Positions 28,271 through 29,552 of a stretch of DNA of 29,552 bases are shown one piece after another. The DNA comes from a virus. Both the position numbers and the translations under genes were made by a program. How positions within the stretch are numbered: position 1 is the stretch's first letter; each line of letters begins with the position of its first letter. The stretch is from positions 1-29,552 of IMG/VR virus record IMGVR_UViG_3300013005_001883; one strand, 5' to 3'. The notes beneath the pieces were generated by a model. That model worked only from the letters and a program-made list of their open reading frames with translations. It did no database searches and was not told where the DNA came from.

Positions 28271-28520
28271 TCTCGAGGTCCTTGATTAAGCGGTTGAGTT
28301 TTCGGAGTTGCTTGCGGAGGTCTTTTTTCTCTTCGGGTAGGCCCATGTGTAGGGCTTCCCAGAGCACATGCCCTTCTTCTTTGAGTTCAGATACGACTTC
28401 CTTAGCGAGCAAGAGGATCTCTTCGTCAGTGAATCCTCGGATGTCTCGCTCGTCATCATCGGACCAGAGCTGCATCTTGTACTCGAGTTCACCTATGCTT
28501 AGTGCGCGATCGATCATCAT
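28254..28520 (-). CDS. Small charged protein of unknown function
   Basis: 88 residues, rich in Glu, Asp, Lys and Leu. The C-terminal third (EEKKDLRKQLRKLNRLIKDL) is a probable coiled coil. The start at 28520 is an ATGA overlap with the previous stop and has GGAGAGG a few bases upstream. No family recognised. Likely an early phage protein that binds a host or phage partner. Confidence 0.55.
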   Translation of the reverse strand: MMIDRALSIGELEYKMQLWSDDDERDIRGFTDEEILLLAKEVVSELKEEGHVLWEALHMGLPEEKKDLRKQLRKLNRLIKDLENATSK

Positions 28521-28879
28521 GTCCTCTCCGTGTAATACGCTACAACAGATTCACCTATCTTGCTAGCACGTTCTTCGGTAGGCGCCCAGCCAAACTCATT
28601 GACAATGCCAAAGTTGTCAGTCACGGTCCAGCACCATGAAGGTTCAGCAGTCTCTTCATACTCAACAGTCAGCTTATACTTTGTTGGGACGTGTCGCTGC
28701 GGAACAGCATCGACCGTGTGCAACCAGCGGGCTGCTTCGTAAACTGTCTTGCGTGGGTACAGCGATCGGTACTCACAGATGACCTGTGCTAGTGTCTTAC
28801 GATCGAGTTGATGGCTGTTCTGGGGTCCAGACCGCCAGGCTTCACTACGAATCTTTGGCCAAAGTTCTTGCCAGCGCAT
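28517..28879 (-). CDS. Small protein of unknown function, possible HicB-like fold in C-terminal half
   Basis: 120 residues from the ATG at 28879, immediately after GGAGATAACACA. The frame extends upstream to 28987, but that part lies in the ribozyme and the preceding gene. The N-terminal part is helical and basic; the C-terminal half (YKLTVEYEETAEPSWCWTVT, then a strand, then ERASKIGESVVAYYTE) has a beta-beta-beta-alpha order like HicB-type partial RNase H folds, a weak resemblance only. The cleaved hammerhead end would give its mRNA a new 5' end about 54 bases upstream of the start. Confidence 0.55.
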   Translation of the reverse strand: MRWQELWPKIRSEAWRSGPQNSHQLDRKTLAQVICEYRSLYPRKTVYEAARWLHTVDAVPQRHVPTKYKLTVEYEETAEPSWCWTVTDNFGIVNEFGWAPTEERASKIGESVVAYYTERT

Positions 28880-28891
28880 TGTGTTATCTCC
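28880..28891 (-). promoter_or_regulatory. Conserved leader/Shine-Dalgarno motif GGAGATAACACA
   Basis: Second copy of the 12-mer, directly before ATG 28879. Here it is preceded by CTT, as at 29212-29223 (CTTGGAGATAACACA, 15 shared bases). It fixes the start of the 120-residue protein and lies downstream of the hammerhead ribozyme. Confidence 0.8.
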
Positions 28892-28903
28892 AAGTAAGTG
28901 AAT

Positions 28904-28954
28904 GGACTCATCAGTGGCAGCACCAACTGCCAGACCGCCGCAGCGGTTTCGTCC
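28904..28954 (-). ncRNA. Type II hammerhead ribozyme
   Basis: Read on the - strand from 28954: GGAC (stem II, 3' arm), GAAA, CCGC, loop TGCG, GCGG, TC, then TGGCAG, loop TTGGTG, CTGCCA, then CTGATGA and GTCC (stem II, 5' arm). Stem III is ACCGC with GCGGT (5 pairs, including the A15.1-U16.1 pair), stem I is six perfect pairs, stem II four perfect pairs and is the open stem, which makes it type II. All core positions (CUGAUGA, GAA, cleavage C17, G10.1-C11.1) are present. Predicted cleavage is between 28933 and 28932. It begins four bases after the stop of the upstream gene, in the gap before the next ribosome binding site. Confidence 0.92.
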
Positions 28955-28958
28955 TGAG

Positions 28959-29210
28959 TTAGTCGGCTTCGGCAAACTTAAGGCCAAAGTCTTCCTCGAG
29001 CGTCGCTAGTACTTTCGACTGTGTAGGCCCGACAGCGAGAACAACTCCAAGCTCGTTGACTGCGAAGTTAATGCATCGCTTATGCTGAGTTGGGTACTGA
29101 TCGGGCACCTTGTCGAAACGAATCAGCGTGACTCCGATGTTTGAGGTCAAGTTAGTCAGAACAGTGGCAGTGTGGTCCGTGGTCAGCAGTGCTTTGAAAA
29201 GATCGGTCAT
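28959..29210 (-). CDS. Small protein of unknown function, first gene of the leftward operon
   Basis: 83 residues from the ATG at 29210, right after GGAGATAACACAG; an in-frame TTG at 29225 lies inside the Shine-Dalgarno and is unlikely. The protein has a beta-rich centre (IGVTLIRFDKVPDQYP and CINFAVNELGVVLAVGP) and an acidic C-terminal helix. No family recognised. As first gene behind the predicted early promoter it is probably expressed early. It is followed by the hammerhead ribozyme four bases after its stop. Confidence 0.6.
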   Translation of the reverse strand: MTDLFKALLTTDHTATVLTNLTSNIGVTLIRFDKVPDQYPTQHKRCINFAVNELGVVLAVGPTQSKVLATLEEDFGLKFAEAD

Positions 29211-29230: not shown

Positions 29231-29253
29231 GTCGATTGCGAAGTGCGATCGAC
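29231..29253. repeat. Dyad in the leader of the leftward operon
   Basis: GTCGAT at 29231-29236 and ATCGAC at 29248-29253 are perfect inverted arms 11 bases apart. On the + strand the stem can extend by GC and wobble pairs. It lies just downstream of the predicted transcription start, so it could be an operator or a 5' hairpin of the leftward mRNA. Confidence 0.5.
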
Positions 29254-29262
29254 TATGCTAGA

Positions 29263-29291
29263 ATTATCGACTACCAAAGGCAAAATGTAAA
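29263..29291 (-). promoter_or_regulatory. Predicted sigma70-type promoter of the leftward operon
   Basis: On the - strand, TTTACA (29291-29286) is followed by exactly 17 bases and GATAAT (29268-29263). Each hexamer matches consensus at five of six positions. The predicted start is near 29256, giving a leader of about 46 bases to the first ATG (29210). No comparable promoter is seen inside the operon. Confidence 0.6.
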
Positions 29292-29309
29292 TACCATTTT
29301 GGCATTTTG
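29281..29309. repeat. AT-rich inverted and direct repeat, CATTTTG
   Basis: CAAAATG (29281-29287), a 7-base spacer, CATTTTG (29295-29301), one base, then CATTTTG again (29303-29309). An AT-rich stretch continues to about 29337. It overlaps the -35 box of the predicted leftward promoter, so it might bind a regulator, or form an easily melted origin segment. Confidence 0.55.
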
Positions 29310-29345
29310 TTCAAAATTTTTTGACCGTTATACTATAGCTCTTTG

Positions 29346-29385
29346 CCGATGAAACACGGCTCTAAAATGCACTAGCCTTCATCGG
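29346..29385 (+). terminator. Strong hairpin followed by T-run; possible rightward terminator or structured site
   Basis: CCGATGAA (29346-29353) pairs perfectly with TTCATCGG (29378-29385). Inside it, GGCT (29358-29361) pairs with AGCC (29374-29377), leaving a 12-base loop that holds an AATGCACT core. On the + strand GAAGAA and then TTTTT (29392-29396) follow, which would suit Rho-independent termination of rightward RNA. There is no known rightward gene to terminate here, so an origin or regulatory role is equally possible. Confidence 0.45.
29366..29373 (-). repeat. AGTGCATT core, copy 1 (inverted)
   Basis: AATGCACT on the + strand, located in the loop of the hairpin 29346-29385. The core recurs at 29465-29472 and 29514-29521 and in element 1 at 16579-16586. 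Confidence 0.55.
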
Positions 29386-29464
29386 GAAGAATTTTTCATT
29401 TTCTTTGCATTTGCTATTGACATCCATCTGGTGAACGCTAGAGATCTTAAAACGAATGCGTCCA

Positions 29465-29472
29465 AATGCACT
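29465..29472 (-). repeat. AGTGCATT core, copy 2 (inverted)
   Basis: AATGCACTTTC at 29465-29475 is the reverse complement of GAAAGTGCATT found in element 1 at 16576-16586, an 11-base match, so flanking bases are shared as well as the core. Confidence 0.6.
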
Positions 29473-29482
29473 TTCGGCAGTC

Positions 29483-29530
29483 GGTACGACTACTATATCG
29501 AACTCGGGAGAAGAGTGCATTCTAGTGCAT
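29483..29530 (+). repeat. Element 2: second copy of the long-range repeat
   Basis: Block A is 29483-29503 (GGTACGA, two bases, ACTATATCGAAC) and block B is 29514-29528 (AGTGCATTCTAGTGC), separated by 10 bases. The copy at 16547-16593 has the same order, orientation and nearly the same spacing. Block B contains AGTGC twice, five bases apart, and here the second copy also extends to AGTGCAT. The block A core TACGACTACTATA also resembles a single-subunit phage RNA polymerase promoter, discussed in the findings. Confidence 0.75.
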
Positions 29531-29552
29531 CGTCCAGTCGAACATTGCAGCC

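Follow-up and report, generated by a model that had tools for sequence, protein, structure and literature searches.

Introduction

Hammerhead ribozymes occur in some phage and bacterial genomes, as a first-pass annotation of the locus described here also pointed out; those of type II in bacteria and prophages, both isolated and in clusters, date from 2011 (Perreault et al., 2011, PMC3088659). Clustered prophage hammerheads process native polycistronic RNAs of about 2 kb in vitro and an Agrobacterium hammerhead array is active in E. coli, although 4 of the 18 hammerheads with a consensus sequence that were assayed in vitro showed no activity (PMC3088659). In haloviruses HF1 and HF2, the HHphage variant belongs to a polycistronic early region, where a helicase gene follows it, and a transcript 5' end maps no more than 3 nt from the cleavage site (PMC3088659). 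The function of bacterial and phage hammerheads is described as open (PMC6155905, PMC10085705). Among engineered systems, RiboJ-type insulators carry a ribozyme just upstream of a ribosome binding site, where it detaches the coding region and the leader hairpin stays (PMC6993053), and ribozyme-assisted polycistronic expression, as it is cited in PMC12819055, likewise detaches the coding region before the ribosome binding site (Liu et al., 2022).

Here, we describe a type II hammerhead in the window, by which we mean the whole 29,552 bp stretch that was analysed (IMG/VR record IMGVR_UViG_3300013005_001883), a fragment of an uncultured tailed phage with genes for major capsid protein E, a family A polymerase, a primase-helicase, an SNF2-type helicase, a cytosine methylase, thymidylate synthase and dCMP deaminase. 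The element shares with the type II hammerheads of Perreault et al. (2011; Rfam RF02276) its core, its open-stem II permutation, its site between phage genes and the frequent occurrence of several in a row, but it falls below RF02276 detection and loop I is short (5-6 nt), with U first and usually G last. Many type II hammerheads have a loop I-tail pseudoknot, whereas the window copy and the phage-wide set described below are without a clear one. Like HHphage, the window element precedes a helicase gene within a polycistronic early region; the HHphage core is a variant, whereas the window core is the consensus and sits between two small genes. As in the engineered systems, the ribozyme would detach a coding region just before the ribosome binding site, but those systems are built with other ribozymes, whereas the phage version is natural, of type II, and would leave the upstream message with a terminal hairpin as well.

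Results and Discussion

Read 5' to 3' on the minus strand from 28954 to 28904, the segments in Table 1 form a complete hammerhead, with C17 at base 28933 and the predicted cut at 28933/28932. Sequence and two alignments show the conserved sequence features of the class (CUGANGA and GAA-A core, A15.1-U16.1 pair, H17 that is not G) in the window copy, and fold and covariation place three helices round the core, with stem I (6 pairs) and stem III (5 pairs, A15.1-U16.1 included) closed by loops and stem II (4 pairs) open. The first-pass annotation, made from the letters alone, had called a type II hammerhead with these core elements, stems and cleavage C; the call is correct to the base, and by sequence, fold, covariation and an independent model the element is canonical and complete. 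No other hammerhead, type I, type III and relaxed cores included, was found by the relaxed finder in the whole window.

The element lies between the first two genes of a leftward early operon, as had been proposed, and the gene map identifies this as the replication-gene operon. Neither gene 1 nor gene 2 has a match in Pfam or PHROG, and no named relatives of gene 2 were found in cultured phages. Four nucleotides (CTCA) separate the gene 1 stop from the ribozyme, and 24 nt, with the Shine-Dalgarno within, separate the ribozyme from the gene 2 ATG; the earlier claim that the ribozyme sits between stop codon and Shine-Dalgarno thus stands, while its claim of an exact fill does not. The region yielded two promoter-like sites, compared with an expectation of 0.8 from shuffles.

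Table 1. Features of the hammerhead locus in the window, and promoter-bearing copies in related loci (L numbers denote individual loci)
Feature	Position	Strand	Evidence or remark
Promoter-like TTTACA-17-GATAAT upstream of gene 1	29263..29291	minus	10 of 12 matches
Gene 1, 83 aa from ATG, first of the leftward operon; stop TAA at 28959-28961	28959..29210	minus	homologues followed by a hammerhead in L002 and L107
Type II hammerhead ribozyme	28904..28954	minus	sequence, relaxed finder, independent covariance model, covariation in relatives
Stem II 5' strand GGAC	28951..28954	minus	pairs with 28904-28907; AGAC/GTCT compensatory change in one relative
Core G12-A13-A14 (GAA)	28948..28950	minus	invariant in alignments
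Stem III hairpin ACCGC-UGCG-GCGGU, A15.1-U16.1 at base	28934..28947	minus	both-side changes at three pairs in relatives
Stem I hairpin UGGCAG-UUGGUG-CUGCCA	28915..28932	minus	TGACAG/CTGTCA compensatory change in one relative; loop statistics
Core CUGAUGA (C3 to A9)	28908..28914	minus	invariant in alignments except N7
Stem II 3' strand GUCC	28904..28907	minus	sequence
CACU, possible partner of loop I GGUG (28921-28924), weak	28897..28900	minus	A-U, G-U and G-C versions at one position in relatives
Shine-Dalgarno GGAG of gene 2, inside leader TTGGAGATAACACA	28888..28891	minus	sequence, relatives
Gene 2, 120 aa, on the downstream cleavage product in the proposed scheme	28517..28879	minus	homologues preceded by a hammerhead in L004 and L136
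Group copies with embedded sigma-70-like promoter	L136 2763-2821, L136 3077-3133, L107 2145-2200, L138 3168-3224	plus	
Group copy with embedded sigma-70-like promoter	L136 930-987	minus	

With RNAfold, the 52-mer folds as a hammerhead at -24.1 kcal/mol (z -2.64). In an 81-nt context the minimum is a competing fold in which the upstream spacer pairs with the CUGAUGAGUC strand; in a 121-nt context the hammerhead draws level with the best fold (-33.7 for each). The competing fold, which would sequester the core with the upstream spacer, was rejected on this tie and because no such pairing stands out in the spacers of relatives. Pairing of loop I with the tail (GGUG:CACU) is possible, with one covarying position in relatives and a loop I that is itself strongly conserved across the phage-wide set; as a general feature this pseudoknot was discarded, since 207 copies show no enrichment over swapped tails.

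Most probably, the ribozyme serves as an mRNA punctuation mark, in which co-transcriptional self-cleavage would separate the messages of neighbouring small early genes and put a hairpin at each new end. Transcripts from the promoter-like site ahead of gene 1 would carry gene 1, the ribozyme and gene 2, followed by the replication genes. In vivo, this RNA would fold after the polymerase has passed and cut itself 3' of C17. The gene 1 mRNA would then finish with the stem III hairpin, its last bases GCGGUC bearing a 2',3'-cyclic phosphate. The mRNA of gene 2 and the replication genes would have a 5'-OH and, at its start, the stem I hairpin, some 40 nt ahead of the Shine-Dalgarno. Among the three circular permutations of the hammerhead, type II alone leaves each product with a closed hairpin of stem I or stem III. 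From the hairpin on each side of the cut we infer protection of both ends and independence of the small early genes: the closed hairpins should shield the new ends against 3' exonucleases and against decay that depends on a 5' phosphate, and the fate of the interchangeable small gene at the front would no longer be tied to that of the genes that follow, an arrangement that would suit a region of gene exchange. Effects on the stability or timing of the early mRNA may follow. Cleavage is predicted because of established hammerhead chemistry and the measured cleavage of comparable prophage arrays (PMC3088659). Covariation, the match to an independent covariance model, repeated use and fixed placement, all in silico, support an active and selected ribozyme and, with it, the view of the first-pass annotation that the early message would be split.

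The phage group of the window holds 12 further copies on three related contigs, all alignable with the window copy, and a fourth contig is of the same species and carries the same copy. Across the 13 group copies all 208 of 208 pair cells are standard; because the finder demands pairing, this figure is partly built in, and the fair evidence comes from double changes (16 cells, at 5 pairs, differ on both sides, and each of the three stems has compensatory changes) and from slid controls, which are 27-48% paired. None of 500 shuffles reached the covariation score of the 13 copies.

In relatives, both divergent operons open with one to three small genes that are each followed by a ribozyme, for example after each of the first two leftward-operon genes and each of the first three rightward-operon genes in contig 3300042879_002840, and none was found among the replication genes examined in relatives. 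The joints differ, with gene 1 and gene 2 on either side of the ribozyme in the window, gene 1 and gene Z in L002, gene 1 and gene Y in L107, and gene Y and gene 2 in L004; the two overlapping ends of contig 3300048593_000163 show gene Y as an extra gene that separates genes 1 and 2, with a ribozyme on each side. The place of the ribozyme is constant while the adjoining genes change. It is possible, if somewhat unlikely, that ribozyme and leader are kept mainly to make an inserted small gene an independent unit of transcription and translation, and the repeat may then be a recombination site. This would account for one ribozyme joining different genes in the window, L002, L107 and L004, for two near-identical copies in one genome, and for a homologous gene followed by a ribozyme that runs leftward in L136 and rightward in L138, but the covariation reflects selection on RNA structure and not only on DNA identity, and the sample is of about five genomes. 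Such a role complements cleavage rather than excluding it.

L107 and L004/L126 are the two ends of contig 3300048593_000163 and overlap in gene Y, which suggests that this genome is circular or circularly permuted, with gene Y between two near-identical hammerheads. Intergenic repeats precede the small leftward genes in L002 1-5400 (8 copies of a 142-nt repeat and 5 of a 300-nt repeat). Window positions 29250-29552 and contig 3300013004_002241 both end in sequence related to these repeats, and the assembly probably broke there in both.

A phage-wide set of 207 distinct type II copies was collected from 103 loci. The upstream stop codon ends between -12 and +1 nt relative to the ribozyme in 154 of the 196 copies with an upstream ORF, most commonly at -2, 0 and +1, and overlaps stem II by one base in 37; only 11 of the 196 lie deeper in the upstream frame. 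The next start codon follows at a median of 25 nt (IQR 19-31), and a control on the opposite strand gave no such peak. The genes on either side are small, with medians of about 96 and 105 aa, and one ribozyme follows the next at intervals of about 540 nt. Although loop I was left free in the search, its first base is U in 184 of 186 loops of 5 or 6 nt and its last base is mostly G, and the window loop UUGGUG matches the phage-wide pattern U-N-N-N-U-G.

This placement also bears on a second reading, which we regard as unlikely, in which a ribosome that has reached the gene 1 stop codon would sit on stem II and the GAAA (28948-28954) and block folding, so that mainly messages with an untranslated first gene would be cut and the ribozyme would be a switch rather than a constitutive cutter. 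The 4-nt distance in the window, the narrow range and one-base overlaps in the phage-wide set and the scarcity of copies deeper in the upstream frame are as it predicts; however, the dense packing of phage genes could by itself account for a ribozyme adjoining a stop codon and predicts the same spacing, and folding may outpace the first ribosome.

In the same loci, 231 type II, 6 type III and no type I motifs were counted, with none in shuffled sequence; the loci were picked for type II, yet 82 of the type II copies are not themselves matches to the search pattern. The type III hammerheads share loci with type II motifs and lie in L010 (4073-4126, plus strand), L036 (5509-5560, plus), L044 (7987-8042, plus) and on the minus strands of L045, L049 and L120. 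Long one-strand type II arrays, with nearly one copy per gene, are found in L102 (12 copies), L087 (9), L099 (8), and L080 and L110 (7 each), and their copies are mostly below the Rfam threshold. The cultured Xanthomonas phage Xp15 (NC_007024) also has a matching motif, at L084 396-456 (minus strand). In the 207 copies the first base 3' of stem II is A in 69%, and within the first 14 nt TCAG is enriched about 5-fold (51 copies, 34 loci); it could pair with the core CUGA or form a tertiary contact.

Five of the 13 group copies contain TTGACA (once TTTACA) followed, after exactly 17 bp, by TATAAC, TAAATT, TACAAT or TAGAAT; the -35 immediately precedes stem II, the -10 lies within stem III, and the pair is absent from the other 8 copies, that of the window included. 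As the -10 ends 9-10 nt ahead of the cut, transcription is predicted to start about 1-3 nt upstream of the cleavage site. The pattern is suggestive of a promoter-hammerhead fusion in five copies that are related to one another, and as a wide phenomenon the fusion was rejected, since a scan of viral contigs finds it only in the phage group of the window. A combined scheme, tentative and on balance improbable, would make the joint a gene-boundary code: at a fixed site, terminating ribosomes would gate the cut, and in those group copies that hold a TTGACA-17-TANAAT promoter, read-through and new transcripts would acquire almost the same 5' end.

The first-pass annotation had named the Rfam type II covariance score as a check, with a score below threshold to count against the element. 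The score is indeed below: Hammerhead_II (RF02276) leaves the window site unmatched at the gathering threshold (37 bits) and at E up to 10. The same model finds only 2 matches in 12 sister loci with more than 60 such motifs and is thus nearly blind to them, so the miss tells more about the model than about the site; we treat it as a limit of sensitivity, set Rfam aside as judge, and file the element under the hammerhead class rather than under the Rfam model, whose threshold it does not reach. An independent covariance model (R1), built from 20 unrelated phage loci with no member from the phage group of the window, scores the site at 53 bits (rough E 9e-18), against 12.6 bits for the next-best site in the window.

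A search pattern that fixed only the core, U16.1-C17 and stem II, and left stems I and III free, matched at least 120 stretches in public viral contigs, and a control pattern with two core bases changed matched none there. Among the distinct matches listed, 119 of 126 form both stems I and III with at least 5 pairs (mean 0.065, maximum 2, with shuffled interiors). The same pattern matched 22 stretches in 257 Gb of cellular genomes, which indicates that the elements are largely phage. It is very unlikely that the hairpins are purely structural, as end protection after a host RNase cut or as a translation leader, with self-cleavage irrelevant: stems I and III are ordinary stable hairpins that could serve in this way, but bases needed only for catalysis are invariant and the two-base core change abolished all database matches. 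A chance match, for which the shortness of the motif and the Rfam miss might speak, has practically no probability left and is excluded for the window hammerhead by the R1 match, covariation, recurrence and placement.

Conclusions

The window element is a further example of the known type II hammerheads. What looks new is the placement rule, from stop codon to Shine-Dalgarno, and the promoters in five sister copies; a search of the open-access literature, which is weak evidence of novelty, found no report of this placement, of a short conserved loop I at such scale or of a promoter fusion. The ribozymes of the phage set, short, near-canonical and numbering in the hundreds, hold fixed positions between small genes and are mostly missed by Rfam; the set makes a role for them testable. 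If cutting is co-transcriptional, many phages would set the mRNA boundaries of their operons by catalytic RNA, in place of separate promoters, terminators and host RNases, and these elements would be a natural counterpart of engineered ribozyme insulators.
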